Assembly: GCA_001692895.1 (NCBI GenBank)
Contig: KV748184.1
Coordinates: 1,364,001-1,428,000, forward strand
Reading direction: 5' to 3'
Origin: Cenococcum geophilum 1.58
Lineage: Eukaryota > Ascomycota > Dothideomycetes > Gloniales > Gloniaceae
Length of the DNA: 64,000 bases
The translations under genes were made by a program, and so were the position numbers. The number at the start of each line of letters is the position of its first letter. Position 1 is the stretch's first letter. The notes under the pieces are model-generated. The model was given only the letters and a program-made list of their open reading frames with translations. It was not told where the DNA came from and did no database searches. This document shows positions 7,172 through 28,849 of this stretch, one piece after another.

Positions 7172-7179
7172 CTATCGAC
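7172..7179. repeat. hAT target-site duplication (left)
   Basis: ctatcgac precedes the element and is repeated exactly at 10441-10448. Eight bp is the duplication length of the hAT superfamily, and this pair fixes the element's ends. Confidence 0.92.
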
Positions 7180-7330
7180 CAGACATGGGAATAAGCAAGC
7201 TGGCTTGCTAGATTGGCTTGCTTGCTTGCTGACTAATCAAGCAAGCCAGCAAGCTAGAAGGTCTATTTTAGGCAAGCAAGCAAGCCAAAATGAGGCTCAG
7301 CTTGCAAGCTAGCTTGCCCGCTTGATAGGA
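7180..7330. repeat. hAT left terminal/subterminal repeats
   Basis: The terminal inverted repeat is followed by many caagc and gcttg words, ending with gcccgcttgat, which pairs with atcaagcgggc near 10305 at the other end. Confidence 0.85.
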
Positions 7331-9939
7331 AATATATATACTAGATTTTAGTTGAGAGTTGAATCTTATGATACACTTTTGGTGGTGATTTTGACGCGTG
7401 TAATTGTTTTTCCGCGCCAAGCGTTCTCGCGCTCAAGTCGCGATCTATATTCAAGGAGATCTCTCTACCAAACCCCCCTAAAACACCACCACAATTACAG
7501 CTATCTACTAGCCCTTCTATCAGTGATGCCTCAGGATCTTACCGAAGCCAACCTAAACGCGATAGCCACTCCAACGCCTACAATTACACTTTCCGAAGCT
7601 GTCACTCCAGACGCGTCTCCACCGCCTTCAGATAATACTGACTTTGAGAGAAACTACGATGGGATTAACTGGGGCCGACTCGACCAATATCAGAAGCCAT
7701 TTAGAATCTTAGAGAGGAATGCAAGCTTTATTTACCAGTACGGATATCGACTTCAACATCGCACCAGCAAGCGACTATTTTGGGAATGTAAATATTGCCA
7801 TCAGCATGTTATACCTGGTGGCCGATTTAATATTACCTCTGCTACTTCTTCTGCCTCCCNACACCTTGCAGAAGAGAGGGAAGGCCACGGTTACAATAAG
7901 CAAGGCGTAATTGAATTCACAAAGAAGCGGAAGGCGACAATTCTTAAAGTACTCAACGGGAAGCATAGAATCTCTCAAGGCCTCGCAAACGATCTTATTG
8001 GCGGCTTTAATAAGAAGGCCTTTCAGCAAGCTATAATCAAATGGATTACCGACAATAATCATCCTCTACGAGAGGTTAAAACACCTTCCTTTCGTGTTAT
8101 AATAGCCGCTGCCAATCGCGACGCAGAGCGGTGGATTTGGAAAAGCCATAAGTCAGTTCGGCTTCATATAATGCAGGACTACAAGGCCTACCAGCCAGCT
8201 TGTAATTAAGGAGCTTACAAGGCGCCCGTTCAAAGCTTCATTTCTCATTCAATGGCTGGACTACACGCAGTGGCAAACACCTCTTCGGTGATCTGTGTTC
8301 ACCACCTTAATCGCGAAGGCGAGTTATTGACTCACTTGATTACTTTGCCAGAGCAAACTCGGCCGTCATACAGGAATCAACTACGCTCAAGTTAGTCGGT
8401 GACGTCCTCACCACGTTTTAACGTCAGTAGTAAGAGCTTGGCTATTTTATTACTAACAACGCCGCCAATAACGGCACCTGTATAGATCATCTATCTACCC
8501 ATAGTTTAGGCTTCAAGGAAAAGGACCGTTAGATTCGGTGCGCCGGCCCCACACCTCAACCTTGTAACCAGCCCAGTCGATTTTATTTGAAAAAAGATTA
8601 AGAAGCATATAAGATGAGGAATCAAATATACAGGAGTTAATTGATAAATCTTCACTTCCTACGCTCTCCTCACTGACTTCTACTAAACAGGACGAAGAAA
8701 CGCTTCCTTAAAGAATGCGAAAAGAAGGACCTCTCGGCGTTCCTTATTAACATCCTTAACTCTATCAAATCACCTCAGCTCTTCAATCAACTTCTTTGAT
8801 AGAGTACTAGCGACAGGAGCAGGTTACTGCACCAGAGGCTAAGGGCAGAATTTTGAAGTAGTAAAGCCAGTCAAAAGCCAGATGGAATAGTTATCACGAT
8901 AAGCCGTCGGAACCTGAATTAGCCGTCCTCTTCGTCGCCCCAAAAAACGGATTCAATTAACACAATACAAAATTGGAAATATAGATAAGGCAAGTGGACA
9001 CATAATATCGATAGCCAAAGCGAAAAGTTAACCTCTACCTATAGGAATTACACATCACTTATTGGCAGGCGGGAGCGTTACCTCTAAACGATTGGGACGT
9101 CAATTATCAACTACATCGAACATTCTATCACCCAATCCGCGAAGCTACCCAAGATGCTAAAGCTAGGGCAAATCGGCCTGCATGTCGCGATTGGGAGGTG
9201 ATTCCTACAATCTCAATTGGCTGCTCATCAACCTCTTTGAAGAAAAGAAGCCCGAGTATCTGAAGCAACAATGGAAGGCCTATCCTGATCAGAACCAATA
9301 TAAGAATCACTACGCAATGTAACCTCAATCGCGGGTGGTTAAAACTGCAGAAATATTTAAGAAAACCTAACGAGAACTCCCGTTTGACTACGCAGCCGTT
9401 CTACTTCATCCTTTATACAAAAACTTCTGCAAATATACATGGGCAGATCGCCCCGAGATTGCTGATTAAAAACGACTCAGCTTTCTTAAGCTTTGGCTTC
9501 CAATATAAAGCCTTAAACCAGAGATCCATCAATTACGTCACCAACCTCCAGCTCACCAACTTAGCGGCAAAAAACCATCGCATGCCGGCGTCCGGTAGAG
9601 ACGACTACATTTGAGCCAACACTCGTGGCTCTCAAGGCCTTATTGACCTCGATGAGTACGAAGCTTGGAGAGTTCAAGAGCCTCTCAATCACGATCATCC
9701 GCTTGCGAGCGATCCTATATTATATTGGTGGCAGGAGCGATCAACTCGGCCAAAGCTCTCAAAGATGGCTCTTGATATATTGACAACACCAGCTACAAGC
9801 GATAACTGCGAACGAGCCTTTAGTGAAGCTGGTGATCTTTTAGAGCCACGTCGCTCAAGGCTTCGGCCTGATCTTATTGCTGCCTTGCAGTGTAATCGTA
9901 GCTACAAAAGGATGGGCTTCAAAAGATCTAGTACAGATG

Positions 9940-9981
9940 GTAAGTGAGCCACGATCTACATAGGCGATAGCTAACATCTAG
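9940..9981 (+). other. Putative 42-nt spliceosomal intron in hAT transposase
   Basis: gtaagt at 9940, a branch-point-like ctaac at 9971 and tag at 9979-9981. Removal joins codon GGT and keeps the frame into the repeat tail; without splicing a TGA ends the protein at 9947. It is short even for a fungal intron. Confidence 0.7.
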
Positions 9982-10011
9982 GTGCTTCAAAAGTAGAAGC
10001 CTTATCACCAG

Positions 10012-10151
10012 AGCCTCTCTCAAAGTCTCTCTCAAAGTCTCCCTCAGAGCCTCGCTCAAAGCCTCCCTCAGAGCCTCCCTCAGAGCCTCCCTCAAAGTCT
10101 CGCTCAAAGCCTCCCTCAAAGCCTCCCTCGAAGCCTCCATCAACGCGTTCC
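10012..10151. repeat. 12-bp minisatellite coding a Ser-Lys/Glu-Pro tail
   Basis: Around eleven imperfect 12-bp units (agcctccctcaa-like). In the spliced hAT frame they encode the tetrapeptide S-K/E-P/S-P/L/R, giving a proline-rich, low-complexity tail after the hATC domain. The minus-strand open frame over the same repeat is an artefact. Confidence 0.85.
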
Positions 10152-10303
10152 TCAAAGCCGCTCTCAACACCTCGCCAAGCTTTGCGATAACTACCCCTAC
10201 GTAACTACATTATATAACTACGAGTCGGGCCGCGGAGGAGAGATTTTGGGGTGGCCTACAGCCTCAATTTTGTATATAACACCAAGACTTCTATACAAAA
10301 TTC

Positions 10304-10440
10304 AATCAAGCGGGCAAGCAAGCCAAGCAAGCCGACAATTTTGGCCAAACAAGCCAAGCAAGCAAGCTCAAGGTGTTAAAAATTACAAGCCAGCAAGCTG
10401 AGCCTGCTCAGCTTGGCTCGCTTGCTTATTCCCAACTCTG
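10304..10440. repeat. hAT right terminal/subterminal repeats
   Basis: Mirror of the left end: caagc-rich sequence ending gcttgcttattcccaactctg-like, the complement of the left terminus. Confidence 0.85.
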
Positions 10441-10448
10441 CTATCGAC
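10441..10448. repeat. hAT target-site duplication (right)
   Basis: ctatcgac, identical to 7172-7179. Confidence 0.92.
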
Positions 10449-10838
10449 CGTCTGCCGCTACCGAGATTTCTGTTACTAAAAGTTCTGCCGCTGAATGTCC
10501 TACTGCCTACTAACTGTTACCGAATTCTCCCACCGAGTATTCTACCGCCGACTGTTCTATCTTATTTCACCGCGCTAACTGTCTGCTTTTATTACTGTTT
10601 ATACCACTGTTACTGTTACTGCCGTTACTGCTGTTACTGCCGCCGTTATTATTTTTGGTTTACTGCTGTCCTAGTTGCTATTGGTAGGAAGGATAACGTA
10701 GAATAGTTTTATAGAAGGGTTGAGGATAAAGTTACCTACGTTTTTTTAGGGATATGCTTTCCTTTGTCTATTCTACTTTTGTTATACTCTTGTTTTGCTA
10801 TTCTTCTATATTATAGAACGTTAGGGGACAACGTTCTT
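10449..10838. other. 3' internal non-coding part of gag-only element
   Basis: This continues the pyrimidine/ctg-rich sequence interrupted by the hAT at 7180. No gene is supported; the open frame at 10413-10706 crosses the hAT boundary and is low complexity. Confidence 0.6.
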
Positions 10839-10851
10839 GGTGGGGGAGGTA
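10839..10851 (+). promoter_or_regulatory. Polypurine tract of gag-only element
   Basis: ggtgggggaggta lies directly before the 3' LTR start (tgtggtgg), the expected position of the plus-strand primer in reverse transcription. Confidence 0.75.
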
Positions 10852-11105
10852 TGTGGTGGTGTAGATTGGACGTCGCCTACTGTCTTGGCATTTTCCTATA
10901 TTTATAGAGCCTTCGGCTTCTTTCCTTCTTCCCTCTATTATATATATCACGACTCTACCAGTTACCAGAAATATACTCTTTTCTTTCTTTCTTACTGACT
11001 GTTCTACTGACTGATTACGACTGACCGACCGACCGACCGACCGACTGACTGACTGACTGACGGCACTGTGACTTTCCTATCTTAGAGAGGTCGTACCCTC
11101 CCACA
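10852..11105 (+). repeat. 3' LTR of gag-only element
   Basis: 254 bp, TG...CA, paired with 1502-1755. Ends cccaca, followed by ctat (11106-11109), the duplicated target. Confidence 0.93.
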
Positions 11106-11109
11106 CTAT

Positions 11110-12756
11110 CTTAATTATCTTGCTGCTAATATCTAGAAAGACTATAACTCTATATGCAAAAAATTCTTTAAGGAAGCTGCTTAGGCAGTTAAGAAAAAAA
11201 GATTTAATTACGTTATGGTAGAATTAAGGGACTATAATAAGGATTGCTATAACTACCTTAAAGCTATTAAGCTTAAACGGTGGGTAAGGTCTTATTAACC
11301 GGCTAAGTTTCTACGCTTTAGTAAGAGTACGAATAACACAGTTAAATTAGTTAACAGTAAGCTCTTATTAGTGCGAGACTTCCTACCCTTTTAACTACTC
11401 TATTGCCTTTAGAACTTAATAATAGAGAAGTTCTTTTAGCGACTTTATAGTAGATATAACCCTTAGTTAATAGGAACTCGATACTACAATAAGCTCTTAG
11501 AGAACACTATTACCAAATTACACTTTTGCATTATTACTTAGTTAACGTCTTTTAAGGGCTCCGTCTATATACCTAGTCTTAATAAGATATACCTTATATA
11601 TATTAGGGAAATGGAATATATATATAGCTTCTACTAAGATTACTAGCTTGCCTACGCATACGCTATAGCCCTAGCCAACTTAACTAAAAAGGACGCGTGG
11701 GAGGATAGCTGCTAGTCCCTTAAGAACTTTCGTAAGATATATAAAGCTCCCTTCTAGCTTATTAATCCATATAACTTATCTCTAAAAGATATAACGCCAC
11801 TAATATTAAGCCGGGCAGCCGGGCGGCTAAAAAAGAAAAGATTTAAGCGCCGCGATTATAGAGTAAAGCGCTCTTATTAGTGTTAAAGATGCAAGCGATA
11901 TAGCTATAGTTGGCGAAACTGTTAAAACCCCCCTAACCCGTTCGGTGGCAGTAAAGAGAGCTCTATAAGTAATAGAGAGAGTAGTAAAAATAGTTCTAAA
12001 AGGGTATTACTAAGCAAGACATTAAGCGAGATTATTGTTGCTATATTATAGCCGGAAATAACTAGAGCTAGATACTTTATTACTTACTAAAGGCAGCGGC
12101 AGAAGCCTTCTAATACTTTAGAGGATATAATTAGAAGACTAGATAAGCAGGCTCGTTAATAAATTACCTAAGCCCGCATAAATGCTATGCACTAATTTAA
12201 GGCTAAGGATATAGAGTTTCATTAATAATTGGCTAAGGAATTTAGTAAGGGCTAACCTCTAGAGGACAATCCTATCTTTAACATTAACTTATATTACTAA
12301 CACGCGTTTAACGAGCTTAATAAGCTACTAAATAGCACAAGCAGATAATACCAGAGCGATAGTAATAGTAATACACTAGAAGGCGACGCTAAGAGTAATA
12401 GATTGCCTACTATACTAAATTATAACTATATAGATAAGGAGTAGAGAGAGACTTACCAGCGGGTGAATGCTTATTTCGCTGTACTATTTATACCATTACT
12501 AATAAGACCTACTAATAAACCGTCCTTACTGCTAACTAAGTTCAAATAAACGCCTACTCCTCCTATATCTAAATAATCCTTACTACTTCCTAAGTTTAAA
12601 TAAACGCTAACTCTATCTACTAAGTTGCTAGTAAGGAATGGCCCTACTACTTTACCCACGCCACTAAGCCCGCCGCATCGTTTAATTGGCCTAAAAAGGC
12701 TAGGGGGTAGCATACCTATAGTTCTACTAAAGCGCCAGAGACGTTTAAGACAATAG
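11110..12756 (+). pseudogene. MULE transposase, C-terminal part (degenerate)
   Basis: Continues the frame cut at 1501. Immediately after the junction comes the end of the MULE core, then a Lys/Tyr-rich helical stretch, and a zinc-knuckle-like SYQCKRCKRYSYSWRNC near 11875-11930, where MULE transposases carry a SWIM or CCHC finger. The C-terminal part is Ser/Asn-rich (NSTSRQYQSDSNSN near 12330-12370) and proline-rich toward TAG 12756. A 33-bp direct duplication (about 12520-12600) lies in this tail. Stops are RIP-type. The open frame on the opposite strand at 12471-12713 is an antisense shadow. Confidence 0.72.
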
Positions 12757-13629
12757 GTAGAGTAGGTAGATTTAGAATTAAAAGTAAGTAGAGTAGGTAG
12801 ATACTAATTTAAAAGTAAGTAGAGTAGGTAGATACTAATTTACACCTAGGTGGTTCTTAAACCTTATATATACTTTATTCTCTAGCGCTTTACCTTATTA
12901 GGTAATTATATACTAGCTTAGAGTTAACCAAAGATATAGCCATACAACTATATTTAGTGACTTTAGTAAATGCGACCGTTCCTAACTAATAGTACTAATT
13001 TATAATCTACTGCTTTGCTTTATTAAAGCCACTACCTTACGCTATACTTAATATATATATAAAAGAGTACTCTATAGCTTAATTAGGCTCTGCTACTAAT
13101 ATTAATAATATTAATAGGGGGTAGTTGGATTACGTTCCCTAACGAGATTTTAGATTTTTAGTAATCGCAATCTAAAATCTAAACTTATAAATATAGGGTG
13201 TCTTTATTACTATAGTGGCTACTATAGTAACGGAGGCACCTTAAGTGGTTGGTCTACTGCAGCCTAAAATCTTAATTATTAGGAATTTGGGGTGTCTCTA
13301 CCACTGCAGTAGTAGAGGCACCCTAAGTTTAATACCATACTAAGTATTATAACTTTCCTGCAGTAACCGAGCAACCCTAAATCTTATTAGGCTAGCTCTA
13401 AATTAAAGTAATTATAAAACTTACTACCACTGTACCGTAAGGACTTTTAGTTATAATCTTATAAATTTAATTAAAATATAAACCCCTTTCTAAATTTCCA
13501 CGTGCAATACCATGCTAAGGATTACAATGTAGATTATAAGTTTATTGCTAAACGGCGGAGTCCGCCTTACTTAAAATTAAGCTTATTCTAACTAGGGAAA
13601 CCCTATATTTACTACTATATAAAGGGTAA
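12757..13629. other. MULE copy 2 non-coding 3' region with two conserved dyads
   Basis: No gene. A 35-bp unit agtagagtaggtagat is repeated near 12760-12840. Two long dyads lie at 13196-13240 and 13289-13323, each with arms resembling gggtgtctcta and tagaggcaccc. The same dyads are in copy 1 at 15365-15410 and 15282-15316. Confidence 0.65.
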
Positions 13630-13725
13630 AGCTATTAAGCCTTAATTGGCAGGAGGTGGATTCTGTTTATAGTAGGTGGATATTAAAATAAACGAAACTT
13701 TAGAGGTGGATTTTATATAAACCCT
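13630..13725. repeat. MULE terminal inverted repeat (copy 2, inner end)
   Basis: About 96 bp ending ggattttatataaaccct, the complement of ggggtttatataaaatcc with one CA->TA change. It contains three ggtgg-based words. Identical in layout to 14880-14975; the outer end of copy 1 lacks one roughly 20-bp unit. Confidence 0.9.
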
Positions 13726-13734
13726 ATAATTTTA
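13726..13734. repeat. 9-bp MULE target duplication, displaced half
   Basis: ataatttta abuts the MULE end here. Its exact reverse complement taaaattat abuts the outer end of the other MULE copy at 20679-20687. Nine bp is the usual MULE duplication length. That the halves flank different copies is evidence for an inversion. Confidence 0.85.
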
Positions 13735-14879
13735 TTCCTAGAGGCAAACTACAAGTCCGCGTGCACTATACGGCTTTTATTAGGTCTAGTACGAAGAAGT
13801 ACAATTTTACGGATAAAGATAGGGACATTCTTGAACCTATAAAATACGAAGGAGAAGGCGAAGTGGTCTGGTGGAAAATAGACCTAAAATCGGCTTCGTA
13901 TCTTATAATTACGACCTTATAAACTTAGGCAACAACCTAGACCGCTTAGGAACAGCATAAAACTATTTTCAATCTCTATAAAGACGGTGGTCCTCATTAT
14001 ATCGTTAGTGGGATTTTTACTAACAAGTTCTATATAGATAGGTTAAAGATAGGTTATCTAATAAAAATCGCCAAACAAGTGTATAATGATCAAGTAGTAT
14101 TTCCTCGCTTCTAACGCCCGGGCCAGTCTTACAAGAACGGTAATAGTAAAATAACCTACTACACCTCTTGACCTTTAGTAGTGTTTACTTCCGGTACGCT
14201 AACTAGCAAAGGTTTTATAAGTCTAATTCCCGCCTTAGAAATTTTCAGGGCCCCTAATTAGACGGATTCCCCAAATGCAAAATTAATTAATGATTGTAAT
14301 GTTAAAGCGTTAATTAAATATAAAAAGCTAGGAGCAGCCAATTACTCTTCTCTTCCAAATAAGGTTATTACGGGCTTTAAAAAATGCTCCTCTTTAATTA
14401 TAAAGGTCTTGATTATACGCAGGATAGGGGAAGACCGATAGTTTAATGGGAGGGTAATTAATAAGCTACCACTGGTCGTTTACTAAGACTGCTATGTAAC
14501 GAACGATTCAATATTTAAACCGTATATTAAGAAGCTCTGGCGTAGAGTATCCCTAGAAGCTTTCGAACAGCTAAATAAAGCTTTTAGACACTGGAAAGCT
14601 AAAGGAAGAAAAGGAGAAGAACCCGTCTTTAATATGGATCAATTTCTAGAGGGAGCCGGTCACTTATTAAAAATTTTTACTATCTTTCCAGGCCTGGCTA
14701 AGGTAGGAGATAAGTGGCAGGATACGTGGTAAAAGGATAAGACAAAAGTTGGAACAAAGCCGAGGTAGACAGTTAACGAGTTCCGTAGCGAAAAATGGGA
14801 TGAACCTTCGGACGAGAATCCACTTTAAAAGAATTGGAGCATAATTACTAACTCTAGGAAACTGAATAGAATTATAAAA
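13735..14879 (+). pseudogene. SNF2-like ATPase, middle segment (inverted relative to its N-terminus)
   Basis: One frame, entered at 13734 through the target duplication, runs 381 codons to 14879 with a dozen RIP-type stops. It shows IPRGKLQVRVHYTAF at the start, DKDRDILEP, then KLWRRVSLEAFEQLNKAF and LLKIFTIFPGLAKVGDKW near the end. Fused to the minus-strand segment ending at 20679, the frame is continuous across the duplication (SELNNF then IPRGK). This makes it the next part of the same SNF2-related protein, between the ATP-binding motif and the missing helicase C half. I cannot identify a clear DEAH box. It is flanked on both sides by MULE ends. Family is inferred from the N-terminal piece. 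Confidence 0.7.
14871..14879. repeat. Candidate second MULE target duplication (one half)
   Basis: attataaaa abuts the inner end of MULE copy 1 at 14880. It does not match the 13726 duplication, so it should belong to copy 2. Its partner is expected outside the window, next to copy 2's far end. Confidence 0.5.
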
Positions 14880-14975
14880 GGGGTTTATATAAAATCCACC
14901 TCCAAAGTTTCGTTTATTTTAATATCCACCTACTATAAATAGAATCCACCTCCTGCTAATTGAGGCTTAATAGCT
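14880..14975. repeat. MULE terminal inverted repeat (copy 1, inner end)
   Basis: Begins ggggtttatataaaatcc and continues with three tccacc words. It pairs with 20603-20678, which lacks one roughly 20-bp unit. Confidence 0.9.
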
Positions 14976-15848
14976 TTACCCTTTATATAGTAGTAAATGT
15001 AGGGTTTCCCTAGTTAGAATAAGCTTAATTTTAAGTAAGGTAGACTCCGCCGTTTAGTAATAAACTTATAATCTATATCGTAATCCTTAGCATGGTGTTA
15101 CACGTAGAAATTTAGAAAGGGGTTTATATTTTAATTAAATTTATAAGATTATAACTAAAAGTCCTTACGGTATAGTGGTAGTAAGTTTTATAATTGCTTT
15201 AATTTAGAGCTAGCCTAATAAGATTTAGGGTTGCTCGGTTACTATAGGAAAATTATAATACTTAGCGTAGTATTAAACTTAGGGTGCCTCTACCACTATA
15301 GTGGTAGAGACACCCCAAATTCCTAACGATTAAGATTTTAGGCTGCAGTAGACTAACTACTTAAGGTGCCTCCGTTACTATAGTAGCCACTACAGTAATA
15401 GAGATACCCCATATTTATAAGTTTAGATTTTAGATTATAATCGCTAAAAATCTAAAATCTCATTAGGGAACGTAATCCGACTACCCCCTACTAATATTAT
15501 TAATATTAGTAGTAGAGCCTAATTAAGCTGTAAAGTACTCTTTTGTATATATATTAAGTATAGCGTAAGGTAGCGGCTTTAATAAAGTAAAGCAGTAGAT
15601 TATAAATTAGCACTATTAGTTAGGAACAGTCGCATTTACTAAAGTTACTAAACATAGTTATATAGCTATATCTCTAGTTAACTTTAAGCTAGTATATAAT
15701 TACCTAATAAGGTAAAGCGCTAGAGAATAAAGTATATATAAGGTTTAAGAACTACCTAAGTGCAAATTAGTATCTACCTACTCCACTTACTTTTAAATTA
15801 GTATCCACCTACTCTACTTACTTTTAATTCTAAATCTACCTACTTTAT
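14976..15848. promoter_or_regulatory. MULE copy 1 non-coding region with conserved dyads
   Basis: No gene. It lies downstream of the transposase stop. Dyads at 15282-15316 (gggtgcctctaccac / gtggtagagacacccc) and 15365-15410 are conserved in copy 2. Arms stay paired despite point mutations around them. They could be terminators of transcription or transposase sites; this is inference. Confidence 0.55.
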
Positions 15849-18584
15849 CTATTATCTTAAATATCTCTAGCGCTTTGGTAGAACTATAGGTATACTACCC
15901 CCTAGCCTTTTTAGGCTAATTAAACGATACGGCGGGCTTGGTGGCGTAGGTAAAGTAATAGAGCCGTTCCTTACTAGCAACTTAGTAGATAGAGTTAGCG
16001 TTTATTTAAACTTAGGAAGTGGTAAGGATTGTTTAGATATAGGAGGAGTGTGACGGCTCGAACCATCGAACAAATGTCTCGATAGAGACTTGAACAAATG
16101 CTTGCAAGATCAAGCGAACGAATGCTGTATTACGAAGATATTAAGCTAAGGAGCAAGAGAAGGTGGTGAGGCCACGTCTATATACACACGCCAAGTCTTA
16201 AGCGAACCCCTGACTAGGTGACGCGCTCCAGCGCCGTCACAAGGAGTAGGCGTTTGTTTAAACTTAGTTAGCGGTAAGGACGGTTTATTAGTAGGTCTTA
16301 TTAGTAATAGTGTAAATAGTGTAGTAAAATAAGCATTTACCCGCTGGTAAGTCTCTCTCTGCTTCTTGTCTATATAGTTATAATTTGGTATAGTAGGTAA
16401 TCTATTACTCTTAGCGTCGCCTTTTAGTGTATTACTATTACCGTCGCTCTAGTATTATCTGCTTATACTATTTAGCAGCTTATTAAGCTTATTAAACGCG
16501 TATTAGTAATATAAGTTAATATTAAAGGTAGGATCGTCCTCTAGAGGTTGGCCCTTACTAAATTCCTCAGCTAATTATTAACGAAACTCTACATCCTTAG
16601 CCTTAAATTAGTGCATAGTATTTATATAAGCTTAGGTAACTTATTAATAAGCCTGCTTATCTAGTCTTCTAATTATATCCTCTAGAGTATTAAAAGGCTT
16701 CTACCGCTACCTTTAGTAAGTAATAGAGTATTTAGCTCTAGTTATTTCTAGCTATAATATAGTAATAATAATCTCGCTTAATGTCTCGCTCAGTAATACC
16801 CTTTTAGAACTATTTTTACTACTCTCTCTATTACTTATAAAGCTCTCTTTACTACCACCAAACGGGTTAGGGGGGTTTTAACAGTTTCGCTGACTATAGC
16901 TATGTCGCTTATATCTTTAACACTAATAAGAGCGCTTTACTCTACGATCACGGCGCTTAAATCTTTTTTTTTCGGCCGCCCGGCTGCCCGGCTTAATATT
17001 AGTAGTGTTATATCTTCTAGAGATAAGTTATATAGATTAATAGGCTAGAAGGGAGCTTTATATATCTTGCGAAAGTTCTTAAGGGACTAGTAGCTATCCT
17101 CCCATGCGTTCTTTTTAGTTAAGTTAGCTAGGGCTATAGCGTATACGTAGGCGAGCTAGTAGTCCTAGTAGAAGCTATATATATATTCCATTTCCCTAAT
17201 ATATATAAGGTATATCTTGTTAAGACTAGGTATATAGACGGAGCCCTTAAAAGACGTTAACCGAGTAATAATATAAGAGTGTAATTTGGCAATAGTATTC
17301 TTTAAGAGCTTATTATAGTATCAAGTTCCTATTAACTAAGGGTTATGTCTACTATAAAGTTGCTAAAAGAACTTCTCTATTATTAAGTTTTAAAGGCAAT
17401 AGAGTAGTTAAAAGGGTAGAAAGTCTCGTACTAATAAGAGCTCACTGTTAACTAATTCGACTGCGTTATTTATACTCTTACTAAAGTATAGAAACTTAGC
17501 CGGTTAATAAGACCTTGCCTACTATTTAAGCTTAATAGCTTTAAGGTAGTTATAGCAATCCTTATTATAGTCCCTTAATTCTACTATAACGTAATTAAAT
17601 CTTTTTTTCTTAACTGCCTAAGCGGCTTCCTTAAAGAATTTTTCGCATATAGAGTTATAGTCTTTCTGGATATTGGCAGCAAGATAATTAAGGCAGAAGT
17701 AATAAAAATACTCGTCCTAAGGGAGGATATCTATAACGCTAGTAACTAGACCTATATAACGATTACTAATTATGGCTATTTTGCGATTATAGCTAGAGTC
17801 CCATAGCTCCTTTTTAGCCCGTTAAAATATTTAATAGAGAAGTCGTATAAACTATATCTAATTCTTAATTATTTTGCTGGGAACTAGAGCCTAGGTAATT
17901 AGAAGTGTCTAATTATTAAAGTCTTTTATAGCCGTAATAAATAGATCTATCCTAAATGCGGATTTAGTATATATAGAGTTAAGAATTAAAATAGGTTTTA
18001 TATACTTAAAAGCAGAAATATAGGAAGCTAGTGCTATAAAGCACTGTTTAAAGACGCTATCTCTAATAATAGTGCTAGTTATAGCATATACACCTGACCT
18101 ATTATAATAATAAGTTATTGCCTTAAATAAGGCCGGTATATATCTAAAGCTATTTATTTCATTACCCTATAGATTCTCGTTAGCTGCTATTTTAGCGCGG
18201 TTAACCTACTAGAATATAGGCCGGTATCTAGTTGCAATGAATTAATTACTAGCCAGTTATTTTATTTGGATTCTTAGGTTATTATTTAGCCATGGCTTAA
18301 GCGCGTACTATAGATACTTCGTTAATTAGGCTTACTTAGAGTTCTTGTAGGTAATAATAGGGCAAGTATAAGGCGTATATTGTGTAAGGGTAAAAAGGCC
18401 GTTCTTTATAAGCGCAATTTGCATATAGAAGGGACAGCTATATTTGCCTAGCTTATAGTAAGCACACTAAACGGATTTATTGTTGTTTAGTGCAGGCTTT
18501 AGATACTAATTAAGTTCGATAATTATAACTATAACGTAGCTAGTGGCTTCATCTATAGTCTTAAAGGTTTTACTAACTTTAAAT
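15849..18584 (-). pseudogene. MULE transposase (degenerate, interrupted by solo LTR)
   Basis: Second copy of the transposase described at 610-12756, on the minus strand. It has the Cys-rich N-terminal finger near 18430-18470, the MULE core around 17720-17960, and the zinc knuckle near 16880-16940 followed by a Ser/Asn-rich tail. Without the 198-bp insertion at 16049-16246 the coding length would be about 846 codons. Stops are TAA/TAG at Gln positions. Comparing the two copies shows mostly C/T and G/A differences, as expected of RIP. The plus-strand reading over the C-terminal tail is antisense. Confidence 0.75.
16049..16241. mobile_element. Solo LTR (193 bp) inside the MULE transposase
   Basis: Begins tgtgacggctcgaacc and ends cgccgtcaca (TG...CA with inverted termini), flanked by the perfect 5-bp duplication aggag (16044-16048 and 16242-16246). 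The other MULE copy has the empty site. No internal region is present, so an LTR retrotransposon inserted and recombined down to one LTR. It is less AT-rich than its surroundings. Confidence 0.88.
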
Positions 18585-18893
18585 ATTATATAGGATAGTA
18601 TATAAGAAATATATAACCATAGGAGTAAGCAGAAAGTAAGAGTTGTTAATAATACTAGTAAAGAGAAAGGAGAATGTATAAAAGGACGCGTTCTCTATAT
18701 TTACAGTGGCGCTATACTATAAAATTTTAGGGGTAGTTTAGCTAAATACATCCTACTGTAGTATAAATAATATATTTTAATAATATATTTAGTAGCTACA
18801 ACCTATAAGGCGCCTTAGTTATTATAGGACCCACAAATAATTATATAAGGCGCCTCGGTTACCGCCGTAGATCCTTTTAATTAGATAAAAACC
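18585..18893. promoter_or_regulatory. MULE copy 1 transposase upstream region
   Basis: AT-rich, no ORF. It includes further isolated aaggcgcctt palindromes near 18808, 18848 and 18908 spaced differently from the array. Likely transposase promoter. Confidence 0.45.
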
Positions 18894-19113
18894 GCCTGCA
18901 GTAACTAAGGCGCCTTATATATAATATATTTACCCCTATAGTAACTAAGGCGCCTTACATATAATATATTCATCCCTATAGTAACTAAGGCGCCTCATAT
19001 ATAATATATTCACCCCTATAGTAACTAAGGCGCCTTATATATTATATGTTTACCCCTATAGTAACTAAGGAGCCTTATATATTATATATTTACCCTTACT
19101 ATAACTAAGGCGC
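18894..19113. repeat. 40-bp tandem array in MULE copy 1
   Basis: Inverted counterpart of 81-300, with aaggcgcctt at each unit boundary and tacccctatagtaac between. It separates the small ORF from the transposase. Confidence 0.9.
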
Positions 19114-19182
19114 CTTATCTTACGTTACTATATTAAGTAATAAGTTATATAATAGGTAAGCATAGATCTAAATTTAGGATAT

Positions 19183-19730
19183 CTATACAACTATACTAGC
19201 AGCTCCCCCTCTACCCCCTCTACCCCTTCTACCCTTCTTTCCACCTATCTTACTACCTACTACCCCTCTTATCCCACCCTTTCTATAACTAGCTTAACTT
19301 AGGCGGGGCTTAGGGGGCCGCGCTAGTAGGGTATACGCCTAATTAGCTAGGTGGCACTTACTATACGCATACCTAAGGCTTCTATTAGTATAAAAAGTAC
19401 TATAATACCTCCTATATACTAAATCCCGTGTAATATAACGGCTACAGGCCATAGGAGCTAGTTTACTATATTAGCCATTTATTATACGGGCGTAAGTAAT
19501 TCCCTTACGCTAGTGTAGGTCCAGAGAGTTTTATAAGGCCTGGCCTATATGCCTAAACTGCCTAGTAGCAGCATTAAGCGCAGCAGCGTTGTTCTACTTA
19601 GTATTCCACTGATCTGGAGACGGAAGATTAGTAGTAGTGGTAGTAGGAGTAGGCGTAGGGGGGCCAGAGGAGCGGGGGGTAGCAGTAGTAGCAGTAGTAG
19701 CTCTATGTATAATTAGCAATATAATACTAT
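19183..19730 (-). pseudogene. MULE accessory ORF with Arg/Gly-rich tail
   Basis: On the minus strand one frame runs from a Thr/Pro-rich stretch (PTPTPTTTTT) through a basic, aromatic middle (RYITRDLVYRRYYS, LRYAYSKCHL). It ends in a Gly/Arg/Lys tail (GGKKGRRGRGGRGGAA) at TAG 19183. Only RIP-type stops interrupt it. It is upstream of, and in the same direction as, the transposase. I do not recognise the family; the RGG-like tail suggests nucleic-acid binding. The beginning is uncertain. It could be a second MULE gene or a captured fragment. Confidence 0.5.
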
Positions 19731-20602
19731 TATACTTGCTATATAATATACCTAGGTGGACTAAAAGACCTTCTACGCCTATTATTATCCTTATCTAAGG
19801 AAGGGACGTCCTAAACGTCTCCGCTGGCGGCTATGGCGGGGCACGCGTATAAGGGACGGCGCAGCTAGTGGATAGGCGGCAATAAGGCCGGAGTAGTTAA
19901 TACAGAGGATAATAATAATAATGGTGGTGGCGGCGGCGGCTGCTAGGGAGGCTGTAAAAAAGGTAGAGGGTTTAATAGAGGTGATAGAGGAGATCCTATT
20001 ACCTTATTAGTAAAAGCATTTAGATTAAACTTAGAGTCTTCTATTATAGTAAGCTTAAAGATAGAGGTGTATATTAGTTAGATCTACCTTTATTTTAGGT
20101 AGAGGAAAGATTATATTTATACAAGCTTATTCTATTATAATAGTAAATAATAGTTATTATAACAAATTAATAATAGGCATTTAAATGACTATAATACTAT
20201 CGCATGACTAGAACTTAAGATTTTACTAATTTACTTACCAATAGGCTCGCTAAATCTCTATTAGATTAAGTAATAATAAATTAAGTGACAGAGTAGCGTT
20301 AGGTAAGAAAGGATACTAAAGGATACTTAGGAAAGGTTTAATTGCCGTTAAAACACTAAAACCCTATATATAGACTCTATATAGCATATAAACTTAAGCC
20401 TTATATAGTAGGAAAATTAGAAAGATTGCGTTCTCTACGCGTCTTACCAAAATTTCGGTTAAAAAGGCGGGGATATGACGCGCCAAGCTTCGTCAAATTT
20501 TTAGAATAACGCCTGTACGCGCCCATAGATTACTATATAGATTGGCGTTGTACTAGGCTAGATTGGCGTTATACTAGGCTAAATTAGTGTTACGCTATAT
20601 GA
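19731..20602. other. MULE copy 1 outer region, no clear gene
   Basis: The left part (19800-19960) is GC-richer with ggcggc runs. 20000-20330 reads as long frames with RIP-type stops on the plus strand, but I recognise nothing. A tandem attggcgtt[a/g]tactaggcta occurs near 20540-20580. Confidence 0.4.
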
Positions 20603-20678
20603 AGCTATTAAGCCTTAATTGGCAGGAGGTGGATATTAAAATAAACGAAACTTTGGAGGTGGATTTTATATAAACCCC
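20603..20678. repeat. MULE terminal inverted repeat (copy 1, outer end)
   Basis: 76 bp ending ggattttatataaacccc. Pairs with 14880-14975. Confidence 0.9.
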
Positions 20679-20687
20679 TAAAATTAT
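20679..20687. repeat. 9-bp MULE target duplication
   Basis: taaaattat, the exact reverse complement of 13726-13734. It lies inside the SNF2 reading frame (codons for Asn-Asn-Phe on the minus strand). Confidence 0.85.
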
Positions 20688-22740
20688 TTAGTTCTGAGGT
20701 CTTAAACTATAATTCGACGTCTTTAACCGCTTAGGGCAGTAGATTCTGTCTAGTAATATATATAGTTGGTCCTACTAGCCGGTTAAGAAATTTTCTGGCG
20801 ATACTTCCCTTAACATAACAGCACTGTGGCATACCATCTATTTGACTCGGGCATTGGGCGTTAGGCGGCTGCGGGTGTTTGTTCGTGCTAGGGGCAAGGT
20901 AGAGACTTTTATCTCTACCTTTTTAATTTTTCTAATTAAGCCAGTTAAGGTTAATCTTAGTTATTAACACGCCGGTATACCAGATTAAAAGCATTTAAAG
21001 TGTCTTACCTAAACCTATTATATCCGCGAGAAAGGTCCTACCTAGGGTTGTATAATTAAGAAGAGCATAGGTAACACTAAGCAGCTAATATATCTATATA
21101 GCTTTACCCTTTTTCATGCCGTGTAAGTGGAAGGTTGCGTCTTAAAGAGTGTTGCGAACAGTTAACGGAAATAAGAGGAACTGTAGCGCCTTTACCCATA
21201 ATATTGGGTTAATGTATACTTCTCGCATGTCCTTTAGGTAATTAACTTTCTAATTAACCTCCTTAATTTTATCCTCATGCTCGTCTTTCGGTTCCTTATT
21301 AGTTAAAATAGGGTTAATTAAGGCGTTAAAGTGGCGGCGCTCCTATATACGGTTAAGATTAATTTCCCTAATATAAATTAGGTTAGGGTTATTATTTATA
21401 TTCTTAAATAATGTATTAATAAACATTTCGCGATTAGACTTTGGCCATTTATCACACTATCCTTTTATTTCATCCTATGGTATTATCTTAAATATTTATA
21501 TTTTGTCTAGATCTACGCCTTTTAAGAGCTCTAATTTATCTAGTAGGGGCTAGTCTTTACTACTATGGGTCCAGCTACAAGTAGTTTTAATTATAGCCGG
21601 CCGTACGGCTGATGATGCATCAGTAGGTATAGGTGGCGTAGACTTTAGGGTTAACGTAGGCTTTGGATTTAACTGCTTAGGTATAGGTGGCGTGGACTCT
21701 AGGGTTGACTGCTTATAACTACTTTAACCTAGGGTAGGTATATCTATTCTTCTCCTAGTCGGCACCGGTCGTATAATATTAGGGTTAGAGTTAGACTCGG
21801 AATCACCCTTATTAAATCTTATGCCTATAAACATACGTTAGATAACTCTATATAATATTATATAATCTTATAAATTGTAAAATCTCTTACGCTTTGTAAT
21901 CCAATTAGGATCTTTAACTCCAATTATAATTATATTAAGTCCGGCCTTCTTCGCAGAAAGCACCGTAAATACTAGGTTTATATGGTTAAGAATTAGTATA
22001 CTAGTGGTTAGATCTACTATAGTCCAGCCATCCCTATATTTATCTGCCGAGAAGTTTTTACTTATTGCGGCCTGCAGCTTGTTATATCTATAGTAATATA
22101 TATTAATTTTCTCTGGAGAATCGGATAATAGATGCTTATACTTAGTTTTTAATACAAATCCGTATGGAATGGGGGCCCTAGTAAATGGCGTTTTGTCTAG
22201 GTAACTATACACAGCAAAGCTCATTTCATAGAATGGTGTAAGTATGGTATTTAGCTGTTGTGGGGCTTTAATAGATAGATTACCGAGCACCTGGGCAGCC
22301 TTGGAGGTTGCCCTTAATCTAGATAAGTCGATAGACTGCTCTCTAGAAGACAAGGCGCTACGCTTTTAAATAGCATCAGTTATCGTAACCTTTACGCCTT
22401 TACGTCTGTTGGTTGTTACGTGTCGCTATATAGATTTTTTAGCGGTAATAGCGAAAGCTTTAAACTCTGATGGTAGATTAGATCTCTTAAATACATGCCT
22501 ATACTTAGTGTTAAGAAGGTTAAAGACTATATACTTAACTCCATTTCGCATAGGTCCGGACGTTGGCAACCTACCGCTAGACACTTTATTGATTTCGCTA
22601 GCATAGTATTAGAGGATTTCGCTATATATTTTTTCGTTAATTATAAGTCCTTACTACAGCTTTAGACCACTTATTTGCGATAAGTTCTTATTAGTTACAG
22701 TAGTTAAGTACTAACTAAATTCTAGATATGGCGCCGCCAT
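20688..22740 (-). pseudogene. SNF2-like ATPase, N-terminal part
   Basis: From ATG 22740 one frame runs about 690 codons on the minus strand to the MULE junction. It is interrupted by TAA/TAG at Gln-type positions; the longest open piece is 21868-22353. The N-terminal region is unknown to me (MAAPYLEF..., FNLLNTKYRHVFKRSNL). A Pro/Thr-rich repeat follows (STPPIP twice, about 21610-21700). Near 20997-21030 is LADIIGLGKTL, the Walker A/motif I of SNF2-family ATPases (usual form ADEMGLGKT). The segment GPTIYITRQNLLP near 20730-20770 corresponds to motif Ia. The downstream part lies inverted at 13735-14879; the helicase C-terminal half is not in the window. SNF2 proteins remodel chromatin or process DNA; which subfamily this is remains open. 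Confidence 0.72.
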
Positions 22741-23189
22741 TATAGTTAGGGACCCTATATATTTATAAGCGGGTGAAAGCTTAATATAGAATAGTATAGA
22801 GTGACTTATAAAGATAGTGGAGCGGATAATATATTAGACAATTAGTAATAATATAACAAGATAATCCTAATAGTTATAATAAGAAGGTGTACTAATAGTG
22901 TTAACTTAAAATAATAGCGGATGCTAACGAGAGCGATTTAAGAGTAATATAAGAAATAGAATGGAATGCGAGTCTTAACGTAAGAAGTAGGATAAGATAT
23001 AAGCTTTAATGTAGGTAGTAGAACAAAATATAAGACTTGGAGTAAGAAACGGAACGAAAGGTGCGTAGCAAGACGAGATATAAGATTTGCGCTGCTAACT
23101 AAGTAAATAATAATAAGAGAGCTAATAATTCTATTCTTCGTGTTGTAACTAGTTAGTAAAGTAGCTTTAGAGAGGTAGGGAAACAAGTT
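22741..23189. other. Upstream region of the SNF2 relic
   Basis: AT-rich, no gene supported. Purine-rich plus strand with loosely repeated words such as gataagatataag and aacgaaag near 22940-23090. The minus-strand open frame here is a by-product of that composition. Confidence 0.4.
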
Positions 23190-23516
23190 TAGGACAATCT
23201 AAGATATTAAAAAATGTCTAAGATTATACGAAAAAGTGAAATATAATATGGCATTTTATTCCATAAGTGTAAGGTAAGGTAAAATGCATAGTAGAGAGAG
23301 GTAGGGGGATAATCTAAGACATTATNAAANGTCTAAGATTGTANNAAANAAAGTNAAATATAATATAGTATTTTATCCTATAAGCGCAAGATAAGGTAAA
23401 GTATATAGTAGAGAGAGGTAGGGGGATAATCTAAGACATTATGAAAAGTCTAAGATTGTATAAAACAAAGTAAAATATAATATAGTATTTTATCCTATAA
23501 GCGCAAGATAAGGCTT
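23190..23516. repeat. Tandem repeat, about 116 bp x 3
   Basis: gagagaggtaggg recurs at about 23173, 23294 and 23410, each followed by aatctaaga..., gtctaagatt and ttttat.c.ataag. The second unit contains several ambiguous bases. Not coding. Confidence 0.85.
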
Positions 23517-24069
23517 TAGGATACCCTTTTACCTAAAGTATAACCTATTTTTAAGCTATATCACTAACAAAGCAACTTTTTTTAGGTAAGCTGTTACGTC
23601 TACTATATAGGTAACCTAAAACTAGTATCCTAGATCCCACTTATAGCTACTACGCCTTATATCAAAGATATTCGCTAGACTTATTTATATATAGGTCCTA
23701 TAGTCCAAATTATATATTAAGCTATCTATAACATAGCTATTGTCACTCTAGCCCTATAACACCGTACTCTTATTTATACGCCTTTTTCTTCTATTTCCTG
23801 CCATTATCCGCTTAATCTTTTAAACTTCTATAACCGCCTAAACCGACACCATAGCCTCTTTATCTTTAAAAACACAACTATATTAAGCTTGGCTTAGCCT
23901 TAATTTCTTTTTAAAAACACAGCTACGTTAAGCTTGCCTCGGCCTTAATTTCTCTAAACGCATACTGCCTAGAAATATATCCCGCCTTATATAACTACTA
24001 TAAGCTCTACCTACAATATGGCGTCTGGTGCCCTAGCGCGGAGCGGGCTTTCTTAAAAGCTGTATTATA
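23517..24069. other. Leader of the Plavaka relic, no gene
   Basis: Includes a roughly 45-bp direct duplication (aaaacacaactatattaagc at about 23868 and its variant at about 23913, each followed by ccttaatttct). No gene seen. Confidence 0.5.
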
Positions 24070-24720
24070 ATGCCTTCTAGAGACCAGACACCTAAAGCTT
24101 CTTTAGCCGCTATAAATAAGGGAGATGCCAATATACAGATTAACGGTGGTATACTGGGTGGAGATGGCCCTAATCTTTATAAGCTAGGGTGGGATGTTAA
24201 GGTTAAGCTAGCCAATCTACAGACTGACCCAAATAACCCGTTCTTTTCTACTAAATTATTTAAAGAGCTCTAACTGTATTTTAGCTCTCCGCACCCTAGT
24301 AGTATATAGGCTTGTACTAATATGTCTATTTAATAGGAAACTGGAGGTGTTAAAAGGAATTCTAGAAATAAACTTTTGAAAGCCGTTAAAGATAAGCAGT
24401 TAGCCTACAAGATACGGGCTTTCTATTTAGTTACTTCGCGGGCTTTAAATCATCTATATTATTGCCGATACCTATTATCTGGCCTAACTCTCTAGCATTA
24501 CCCTAACGACGAATATAAGACTTCTAGGCGGCAGCTCAAGTTAGACATTAGTTAGAACTCTATATACTTAAGACTAGATATTATAGTTCCAAGTACTAAC
24601 TTATTTAGTTATCTTAACTTAACTAGCACTACCCTTAATCCTCCCTTTTTTTTTGCCACGGCTTATATAGAAATAACGGAATTGTAGGTCTAAATAGCTA
24701 ACATTATTAGGCTCTGTAAC
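24070..24720 (+). pseudogene. Unrecognised degenerate ORF
   Basis: ATG 24070 opens 67 clean codons (MPSRDQTPKASLA..., INGGILGGDGPN), then the same frame continues past RIP-type stops to about 24720 with KAVKDKQLAYKIRAF and a serine/asparagine-poor, aromatic stretch. It lies upstream of the Plavaka transposase in the same direction and could be a second protein of that element or the remnant of a separate gene. I do not recognise it. Downstream, 24835-25010 holds a partial tandem duplication (cttaaacttagtgttaagct). Confidence 0.4.
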
Positions 24721-25259
24721 ATTAATGGTAAATAATATCTTCGCCGTAGCTATGGTCCTATAGCTATCGCCTAAGAATACTATATATTGTTATTTAGACG
24801 GATAAAAGTTTTTTGGGTACTATTAAGTCTTTAATTTATAGTTTGGCTGCTTTAGACTCTTTTAAGTCCTTAAACTTAGTGTTAAGCTTAGTATTAAGCT
24901 AGTTATATTTACGCTTTAGCGTCTAGTTCGGTTGCCTTGGACTCTTAAGTTCTTAAACTTAGTATTAAGCTAGTTATACTTACGCTTTAGTATAACTAGT
25001 TCTGGCGAGAAAATAAGAGGTATACTCTTAGCAGCTATAAAGCCAAGCCACTTAGATTAAATACCGGCAATTAACCGTTAGTACTATAATACGCACTCTT
25101 TACGCCTAGAAATAATACCACATTGTTTAATATATAATTAGCGATAATATAGCGGAGCTATCTATGGTATTCTTATACCCCTAAGAGTTACGGCGGCCTT
25201 ACCAACACCTATAGTGCTGTAAAAGGCGGCTGCCTAGCCACTAACACGTCTATAAAAAA

Positions 25260-28200
25260 AACACGTAAAGAGAGATATAACACTCGCACGTTTATTACGG
25301 CCCGACTACTTATAATTCGCGATTAATTCCACCACTCTAACTAGTTAGATAACGCGTAATTACAATTAGACGGTATAAATATGGATACTAATAAGTATAC
25401 TCCGGTAGTGGTAGAATATAAGTAAAATGCCCACCCGGTGCCTTTGTGCGGTATACTACATTAGAAAAGCGTCCTATTGTTATTATTATTACTTAGAGTA
25501 GAGATATTTAAAGCAACTAAGAATATAAAGGCGGGTGAACTAATTTCGTGCGAGACCGATAATAATATATAGTAAGTTAACCAGATAATTTTAGATATTA
25601 CTATATAATAACACGACAATAGCCAAAGTATACTATATAATCCTTTTTATTTAGAGTTTAATTACGCCTTTTCAATATAGCTGCACCGCATTTGCTGCAT
25701 AAAGGGAGACGTTAACGCACTGCTTAAAGACACCCGCCTTAGCCTACTTTATAGCCTACTTAGCTTCCAATCTATAAATTAATGGGAGGAACTAATTACC
25801 GCTATTCTATTTGGCATATAAGACAAATAATAGCTCTAATTAGAGTGTAAGATGGAATTAAATATTAAAGGCTCTAAGTAGAGGAAATACTATATTCTTT
25901 ACTAGGATATTATAAATGTAATTGCCTTTCTAATTAACCATTGACCCTTTAAAGATGCACTAATATATGCACCAAAGAGACTCTATAATGCCAATAACCA
26001 CTAAGTCTATAATAAGCTATATAGTAGTGACTAGTAGTGGGAGACATAAGGTAAGGTTCCTAGCGGTGCTATAGTAGTTTCTATACTTATAGCAGTCGAT
26101 AAAACCCAGCTAATAATGCACTATGGTAACAAATCGGCCTAGCCGGTATATCTTACCATTGGTAATTTTAACCGACAAGTTTAACGCCAACAGATATCCC
26201 CCACAAATATTCTTATTAGTTTTATGCTAGTTATTAAAGAAAAGGATAATAATATAAAAAGTAAAGTATATTATAAGGCGATGAGAACTATACTTAAATG
26301 TAAGTCCTGCTTTAGTATTCTAACGCTATATTCCATAAACTAAAATATAATAATAATTAAGCATCTTGTAGAAAGCGGCATAGACCTTTAATATACGGAT
26401 AATTTTGTGCGATAATGTTATCTAATTATATATAGAATAATAGCAGACTATAAAGAATAAGTGCTGCTTATAGGTGTTAAAAGCTAATAGCACTACACTA
26501 TATGCCAGGTCCCCCCTTTAAAGCGTAAGAACTTAACTAAGAAATAATACCCGCTACGCACCTATAAGGAGATAAGAAGATAGATTAAACGCTAGCAACT
26601 AGAAAATATTCTTTTATCCTTAGATAACTAGGTATACCTAGTAGAATGTTTTATATAGTACTATCGCCTATTTAATATCCATAAGGGCATAATAGTAGAT
26701 GTTCTATATTAGCTTCTAAAGGGTATTGTTATGTAACTTATTAAATAGGTATAGAAACTGGTAGGCAATGTCATCTAGCTAAAAAGAAAGAGAAGAGGGA
26801 TAAAGATAACTACAACAAATATATCTGCGGAGACTTAGCTTAATTAGCGTTTTAGATAAGTCCTAGCTTTTATGGGGCTAAAACAATTTAATAATCTGTT
26901 ATTTAGTAAAGTTACTTAATGGACAGGTAATAAATAAAAAGCTATAGTTCGTTAACTTGTTACTGTGCTAGCCCTACTGCTGTCGTCTAGGGAACTATAT
27001 ACTATGCATTTTATAAGAGCCGTATACAACTTTATTATTATAGCTTAGTATTACACCTATAATGAGGAGACACTACGATATATACACCACGCCCTATATT
27101 AAATTAATATGCTTAAAGGCGTGTTTTAAAGTTTCCGTCTAAAGGCAAAGGATTCTAATATAGGCCATTTTAATATACTAAAATTCCATGCCCTTATATA
27201 TTTTAAGGAAAATATCCGCCTATATGGATGCGTAGATGGGTACTACACTAGCGTAAATGGCGAAGCTGGACACTGTTATATTGTTAAGGCGTTTTATAAC
27301 TTAATAAATAAACGGGATTTACTATCTTAAATCTGCTCTTACAATTTAAGATAGGTAGTAGTACTAGTAATAGAAGACGAAATAGCTTTCATAAATAGTG
27401 ATTCTGTACTACAGTCTTCCCAGCGTTTAAAGGTATAGGTTACTTAACTAATATAGCATTTAGCAGTTACAAAGCTTTGGTAGCCTTTAGAAGATATAAA
27501 TAGGGCAACGGATCTTGTCTAGAGGCGTCTTAGGTTAAAGATATAGCTTTATATATCTTATATAGCAAACTACTACAAAATCCTAGGGTTTCTAGACGGC
27601 ATTGCGGTATTTGTCTAAGAGTATAGGCGAAAACTATAAGGCGAACGTGCCTAGAACTCTAATATAGACTAAAAAAAGAAGAATCCTTTATGGGTTAAGC
27701 GCCTGCTTGTTAAAATACATCTATTTATCCGCTATTAGAAATAAGACGGAAAAAATACAATCGACCTTAAGGCCTAAATTAGTGAGGTAGTACGTTATAT
27801 ACTAGATTAGTAATGTTCTAACTAGTAAAGGCGTAATTACGTATAGGTTTAAGAGTATATAGATAACGACGACCGTATTAAAAAGGGCCATATACCGTTA
27901 GGTGGAAGACTTATAGGCTAGCTTTAGCTAATTGTTACTGTTCTAGATATTAAAAGGTTAGATAAGTATAGTGTATATATATAGTATACTAGAGCTATAG
28001 TAGAGCTGCTTTAGCCATTAAATCATGGACTGCCGCATCCAACATACGGTATGGTTAAGGTAAAAAGGTAGCCGCGCTTAAGCGTAAATACTAGGCAAGT
28101 ACTTAGAGGTGGTTGCTTTTATTTAATACTATCTATTCTATAAAGCGCGCATATTGTTCTAGCCGCTACTTCTTATCCAGATTTATACTATATTAATAAT

Positions 28201-28330
28201 TATATTAATTAGGACTAATACAATACTCTATACTCAGATAACTTTCTTAAAGAAGGAACCCGCATTGCGTTATTATATAGAAGCTAGGATAAATAGCAAA
28301 AGCAGCTAAGCTAGTATAGAACCTATATAA
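25260..28330 (+). pseudogene. Plavaka-type transposase (degenerate)
   Basis: Read with TAA/TAG as Gln/Trp, the plus strand shows the conserved blocks of fungal Plavaka transposases in order. A block with APKRLYNANNHQVYN near 25965-26010 is followed by a tryptophan/GATVV region. AVDKTQLIMHYGNKSA (about 26090-26140) corresponds to the family's SSDKT...TGN. YLTIGNFNRQVRRQ-like follows near 26150. DYKEQVLLIGVKS (about 26450-26490) corresponds to DYPEQ..I.GV. A long helical region leads to RAVYNFIIIAQYYTYNEETL (about 27015-27070). NILKFHALIYF...GYYTSVNGEAGHCYIVKAF (about 27175-27295) corresponds to the PKLH...YNTE..ERLH..FAK block. Frames shift in places. The encoded enzyme would cut and paste the element; it is inactive here. 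Confidence 0.75.
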
Positions 28331-28412
28331 GACTATATAGGACTATATAAGATTATATAAGATTATATAAGATTGTATAAGATTATATAAGATTATATAA
28401 AATTATTTTGAT
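28318..28412. repeat. Short tandem repeat (gattatataa, about 10-12 bp)
   Basis: Eight or so units of ga[c/t]tatata[a/g] in a row, directly after the last readable transposase codons. Confidence 0.85.
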
Positions 28413-28489
28413 CCTAATATATATTATAAGCTAGTATACTATAGGCTAAGAAAATAGTAAAAATTTATTTGCGTAATTAGTATATAACT

Positions 28490-28830
28490 TTAAAATAATA
28501 TATTATATTACCTTAATTGCATATTAAGGAATGTGCAGTTAGCTTTTAAAGTTATTAAATTAGTTAACTGCGTGTTATTTAAATTTTAAGNTAGTTAATT
28601 GTATGTTAAGGAATATGCAGTTAGCTTTTAAAGTTGTTAAGTAGGTTAACTGCGTGTTATTTAACTTTTAAATATATTAAGTTGGTTAATTGCGTATTAA
28701 GTTAGTTAAGTTGCATATTAAGTTGGTTAATTGCGTGTTAAGTTGGTTAAGTTGTATATTAAGTTGGTTAATTGCGTGTTAAGTTGGTCAATTGCGTGTC
28801 AAGTTGGTTAAATTGCATATTAATTACGCG
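28490..28830. repeat. Tandem array of ttaattgcgtgttaagttgg-like units
   Basis: Two longer units (about 75 bp, containing gttaactgcgtgttattt) are followed by at least seven 20-22-bp units alternating gcgtgttaagttggtta and gcatattaagttggtta. Position suggests subterminal repeats of the Plavaka element. One ambiguous base near 28591. Confidence 0.8.
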
Positions 28831-28849
28831 AAACGCGAAAAACAAAGTC

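Follow-up and report, generated by a model that had tools for sequence, protein, structure and literature searches.

A segment reversed between two inverted MULE copies within a RIP-degraded Plavaka-like transposon of Cenococcum geophilum

Ectopic recombination between inverted transposon copies reverses the intervening DNA and swaps the target duplications of the two copies. In Ac/Ds alternative transposition, the transposase instead takes ends that belong to different copies and links them to new target sites. Here we describe a 1154-bp segment in Cenococcum geophilum 1.58 that lies, turned around, between two inverted copies of a Mutator-like element (MULE), in the middle of an SNF2-like frame that is itself part of a larger transposon related to the Plavaka group. 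Among the described members of that group, PlavakaB elements have CATCA..TGATG ends and 2-3 bp target duplications, according to the available part of their description (PMC12730594). The window, the whole 64,000-nucleotide stretch analysed, is G000:C9:1364001-1428000 in an assembly of 177.19 Mb and 162 contigs; positions without a contig name refer to the window. The features that define the inversion are as follows.

13726..14879, plus strand (remaining gene on minus): 1154-bp inverted segment that forms the middle of the SNF2-like frame; overlaps the DNA from 20679 onward by 9 bp in 18/18 fetched paralogues.
20688..22740, minus strand: N-terminal part of the SNF2-like frame; no Pfam match in this window piece.
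14880..20678: MULE copy 1, 5799 bp, with GGGG..CCCC ends and terminal inverted repeats that agree at 98% over 55 bp.
1..13725: MULE copy 2, opposite orientation, with a long terminal repeat (LTR) element inside; the outer end of this copy is at C9:1362496, 1505 bases before the window begins.
20679..20687: 9-bp target duplication of MULE copy 1, outer side, TAAAATTAT, from the flank letters.
13726..13734: partner of that duplication, in inverse orientation, beside MULE copy 2, ATAATTTTA, from the flank letters and the paralogue comparison.
14871..14879: 9-bp target duplication of MULE copy 2, ATTATAAAA, beside copy 1; its partner is at C9:1362487-1362495, upstream of the window.

The flanks of the two MULEs were compared first with each other. 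The original prediction, made from the letters of the window, held that the outer end of copy 1 and the inner end of copy 2 adjoin 9-bp words that are reverse complements, and this was confirmed exactly for TAAAATTAT at 20679-20687 and the flank at 13726-13734. Moreover, ATTATAAAA at the inner flank of copy 1 (14871-14879) is the reverse complement of the outer flank of copy 2 (C9:1362487-1362495). All four junctions between MULE and target carry an exact 9-bp flank without a footprint. Each duplication is therefore still there, but its two halves now stand beside different MULE copies, the pattern that an inversion of 13726-14879 must produce. Reversing this segment on paper restores a perfect 9-bp target duplication around each MULE.

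The orientation of the segment was further assessed in related copies. The segment search listed 40 matches including the window copy, which is a lower bound, and 18 of the other 39 were fetched with about 10 kb around each. At all 18 loci, the DNA matching 20679 onward is joined to that matching 13726-14879 in the predicted order and strand, so that the two parts are adjacent in the uninterrupted homologues, relative to which the window segment is reversed. The 9-bp overlap at this first joint is a single ATAATTTTA, and a single ATTATAAAA stands at the far end (18/18 in both cases). The reading frame is kept from its start through the first joint in 16/18 paralogues, the two exceptions (L015 and L016) having frameshifts ahead of the joint. 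In addition, the content predicted for the DNA upstream of the window was found there, namely the outer end of copy 2, its ATTATAAAA flank and the missing C-terminal side on the expected strand; beyond copy 2 the DNA aligns to 18/18 paralogues at 87.6-91.1% identity, the alignment beginning with the first base of ATTATAAAA. Neither of the two outcomes named beforehand as refuting the original prediction, non-adjacent segments in an intact homologue or upstream DNA lacking the C-terminal half, was thus obtained. The window host copy differs from the paralogue majority by 253 transitions and 2 transversions in 6093 columns. The crossed duplications and the 18 intact paralogues show that 13726-14879 is turned around between two inverted MULE copies.

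The frame that had been predicted across the joint held in part. The minus-strand SELNN(F) does run into the plus-strand IPRGK, but the plus-strand frame starts at 13734 rather than 13735. From there to 14879 it shows no frameshift against the paralogues, although it is not open, with 12 in-frame stops.

As had also been proposed, the MULE copies are inverted repeats of each other, aligning in three blocks at 92-93% identity (14881-16049/12556-13724, 16242-17692/11110-12561 and 17695-20677/-1503 to 1499). They differ by 396 transitions and no transversion in 5604 ungapped columns, with 22 gap columns set aside. Plain CpA or TpG contexts account for 213 of these transitions, 72 have a second difference at the neighbouring base and 111 fall elsewhere. 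This transition-only divergence indicates that the copies had essentially the same sequence when repeat-induced point mutation (RIP) began. Such near-identity would fit a local jump, and it made the two copies near-perfect substrates for recombination.

Recombination between the inverted 5.8-kb MULEs, reversing the segment between them within a decayed transposon of about 20 kb, is the best explanation of the whole, with a probability of roughly 85%. A Plavaka-like transposon of that length carrying the SNF2-like gene multiplied and was degraded by RIP, as its copies, ends, transposase and almost transition-only divergence show. Two essentially identical MULEs, either of them first, entered the copy on contig C9 with 1.15 kb between them and facing opposite ways, as the four flanks show. 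One entered the SNF2-like frame and duplicated ATAATTTTA, and the other duplicated ATTATAAAA. Recombination between them, probably homologous, would have flipped the segment, and RIP mutated both MULEs, before or after the flip. A 9.6-kb LTR element seems to have entered copy 2 once RIP had acted on the target site. Wherever in the inverted repeats a crossover falls, it reverses the segment without altering the MULE-target junctions, in agreement with the junctions observed. In host orientation, the copy-specific changes of the segment comprise 2 C>T and 11 G>A, those of the flanks 31 and 57, respectively. The strand bias of the segment does not differ from that of the flanks (P=0.21) and differs from the reversed bias (P=0.0015), which is consistent with the host copy having undergone RIP ahead of the flip, though much of that RIP may predate the MULEs.

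Several points weigh against recombination between the repeats. The crossover could not be placed: the mutation load, counted with A or T as derived, shows no switch along the copies (45:33, 65:48 and 133:72 for copy 1 vs copy 2). The longest identical run, 138 bp at 19984-20121, does not stand out clearly from chance expectation (three null models give P 0.019, 0.099 and 0.013). Moreover, similar DNA could result if a transposase worked on the pair of inner MULE ends, although this would probably leave footprints.

An assembly artefact, in which the segment keeps its original orientation in the cell and was flipped by the assembler between similar repeats, would yield identical junctions. As far as the accessible part of the genome report describes it, the Cenococcum geophilum assembly combined Illumina reads and AllPathsLG with PacBio gap filling (PMC5023957), and a flip could plausibly arise in a gap-filled repeat. 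Of the 37 N scattered over the window, the one at 23326 comes closest to the site. However, 13000-23000 is free of N, the 84 kb examined lack any run of at least 5 N, and 396 of 5604 ungapped columns distinguish the MULE copies, about one in every 14 bases. They are further distinguished by a probable solo LTR and by the 9.6-kb LTR insertion. AllPathsLG usually works with words of 96 bases; only two identical runs exceed that length (at 19125 and 19984), the longer being the 138-bp run, and in copy 1 neither comes within 4 kb of the segment. An assembly flip is accordingly unlikely. Equally improbable in our judgement is an inversion mediated by the MULE transposase, which would have cut the two inner MULE ends so that the 1154-bp segment was rejoined in reverse, akin to Ac/Ds alternative transposition. 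Excision and rejoining usually leave footprints, in contrast to the exact flanks at all four junctions here. The breakpoints do coincide with MULE ends, but a crossover within the repeats predicts this too; for Ac/fAc, the available part of PMC8225341 documents inversions that arose through alternative transposition. That no inversion took place, two independent MULE insertions in unrelated DNA having produced the 9-bp matches and the frame continuity by chance, is highly improbable: AT-rich 9-bp words are common, but two exact matches stand at defined positions (chance 7.6e-6 each, given the composition) and 18/18 fetched paralogues are collinear over both joints.

The host of the two MULEs was identified from the following features and from its other copies.

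20679..28887, minus strand: 5' part of the Plavaka-like transposon of about 20 kb; the rest is the flipped segment plus C9:1351920-1362495 upstream of the window.
25867..26733 (C9:1389867-1390733), plus strand: Plavaka transposase domain (PF18759) of the window copy, E=1.8e-37, 21 in-frame stops.

A copy on contig C33 forms a repeat of 19,993 bp that contains the segment and both flanks, and its PF18759 match covers profile positions 33-325 of 325 (E=2.9e-46). A reading of 24600-28800 in a different frame gave no family match. Element-end searches, in which the best 40 of 576 and the best 40 of 703 candidates were scored, showed that most start or stop within a few bases of one point. The ends read CATCGG(G/C)AAAATAT in inverted orientation (CATCGG..CCGATG), and a 2-bp target duplication is present in 11/12 copies, the twelfth being off by one transition (by eye). 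The C33 copy shows decay of the RIP type, with 34% GC, a TpA/ApT ratio of 1.53 and a (CA+TG)/(AC+GT) ratio of 0.60. The element also carries a ZNFX1-domain gene, matched at E=1.8e-16 in the C33 copy and at E=5.2e-8 in its own copy at C9:1358142. A further stretch of the C33 copy matches DUF6532 (PF20149, E=4.1e-6). AcademH was considered as the element hit for its helicase (PMC10799480, from the part of the source at hand), and the PF18759 match decided for Plavaka. The split gene is part of this RIP-degraded transposon, whose segment occurs at at least 40 places. A host gene is ruled out by that copy number together with the transposon ends; the prediction that a MULE had entered the SNF2 gene was right in that one MULE lies in the SNF2-like frame, but the gene belongs to a high-copy transposon and not to a host locus. 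Stops interrupt the gene as well as both MULEs, and we therefore suggest no function for the flip.

The identity of the SNF2-like gene was examined by profile searches. Stretches that we take to be motifs I, V and VI occur along the frame, the presumed motif I region being in 20688..22740. Among 7 proteins, 3 gave matches below the cut-off (PF00176, E=0.011 and 0.012; PF00271, E=0.067), which follow the expected order along the frame, although they come from different copies. Neither family was matched in the two window pieces. Pfam searches gave no match in 3/3 readings of the frame or in 14/14 members with X at stops, a set that leaves out 4 of the 18 copies because of frameshifts. A PDB profile search of the frame was without a match and a further search returned chance-level matches only; PDB and NCBIfam searches were uninformative. 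Judged by such sub-threshold Pfam matches, the SNF2 label is weak by itself.

The MULE label was evaluated in the same way, starting from the transposase frame.

16700..18778, minus strand: transposase frame of MULE copy 1, 38 in-frame stops.

In the frame of copy 2 (window 416-1501, plus strand), PF10551 was matched at E=0.00059 and 20.7 bits, below the curated cut-off of 27.6. No PF10551 match was found in the copy 1 readings or in the frame of a third copy on contig C1, and the scanned piece on C3 stops short of the domain. A genome-wide PF10551 scan listed 79 matches, none of them at C9; hhalign returned E=0.14 with a probability of 0.4% in the matching region, and an AlphaFold model of the transposase piece was uninformative (pLDDT, the predicted local confidence, 36). 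The C1 copy has 9-bp flanks TTTCAATAA/TTTTAATAA that are equal at 8/9 positions, with one RIP-type difference (by eye). Taken together, the 9-bp duplications, the 55-bp terminal repeats and the sub-threshold PF10551 match in copy 2 point with moderate confidence to a MULE. Long terminal matches occur in the genome at C9 (two copies), C1 and C3 (inner end only), others being short or partial, and transposase-frame matches occur at C9, C1, C3 and, partially, C4, every one with stops. Separately, a MULE stretch of about 340-380 bp (window 15070-15435) is about 70% identical to a stretch within the Plavaka-like element (L009 5582-5917). Portions of this MULE stretch also have matches at many further genomic sites, perhaps reflecting an older MULE relative.

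Each MULE copy contains an insertion of its own.

1502..11105: LTR element within MULE copy 2, 250-bp LTR match at 98%, TG..CA, 4-bp duplication CTAT (by eye).
16049..16241: probable solo LTR in MULE copy 1, TGTGACGGC..GCCGTCACA, 5-bp duplication AGGAG, by eye and with no search for other copies.

The larger element has 44-50% GC over most of its length, and its surroundings mostly 31-37%. It apparently postdates RIP of its target site, because CTAT stands in both target copies where MULE copy 1 has CTGC. Elsewhere in the window, a second large inverted-repeat set at 49600-63700 (53714-56236/60338-62860 at 85%, plus neighbours) shows strong GC-skew switches.

The association of ZNFX1-domain genes with Plavaka transposases was quantified across the genome. 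Measured against the best 123 of 266 candidate Plavaka matches, 57 of 65 ZNFX1-domain matches lie within 35 kb of one, about 5% being expected by chance, and 8/65 lie farther away; many of these pairs are copies of this single family and hence not independent. Nine of the 65 lie within 5 kb. These nine are 2.7-3.8 kb from the transposase (C30:1712561/C30:1716331, two on C6, and one each on C41, C50, C59, C81, C89 and C5) and look like a second arrangement with tighter spacing. No stop interrupts the ZNFX1 domain on C30. By analogy with TET/JBP dioxygenases in other fungal transposons, the SNF2-like and ZNFX1-domain genes might serve Plavaka-like transposons as anti-silencing equipment, a tentative idea that we hold to be rather doubtful. 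The literature searched contained no paper combining Plavaka with SNF2 or with ZNFX1, and a search on SNF2 and transposons gave no closely matching paper. A 20-kb Plavaka-type transposon with both genes would widen the gene set in the idea of silencing-gene capture by fungal DNA transposons.

Compared with fungal Mutator-like elements such as Hop of Fusarium, the MULEs share the 9-bp target duplication, the terminal inverted repeats and a transposase frame of the MULE type, but they are few in copy number and all their transposase frames have stops. The element that was hit shares with PlavakaB, as far as the consulted part of PMC12730594 describes it, a Plavaka transposase, CATC..GATG ends and 2-bp target duplications. 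It differs in its ends (CATCGG..CCGATG vs CATCA..TGATG, the first four bases agreeing and the fifth not), in its length of about 20 kb and in carrying an SNF2-like and a ZNFX1-domain gene; a TET/JBP gene did not turn up here, though no search was aimed at one. The Plavaka families in that part of the source were reconstructed from Agaricomycotina. In the portions of the literature on MULE-mediated inversion that were available, no fungal case of this kind was found. The Ac/Ds inversions of maize, by the available part of their description (PMC8225341), are likewise bounded by two DNA transposons, whereas neither a new target site nor a footprint was seen here. The flip is a known and ordinary kind of event, and what is less ordinary is the element hit, in which the wider value lies. 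The locus is an unusually complete fossil of inverted-transposon recombination in a RIP-decayed genome, with four exact target duplications and repeats that RIP has driven 7% apart. It shares inverted near-identical repeats, reversed intervening DNA and exchanged target duplications with inversions by ectopic recombination, and differs from them only in lying inside another decayed transposon and in that all four duplications are still exact.

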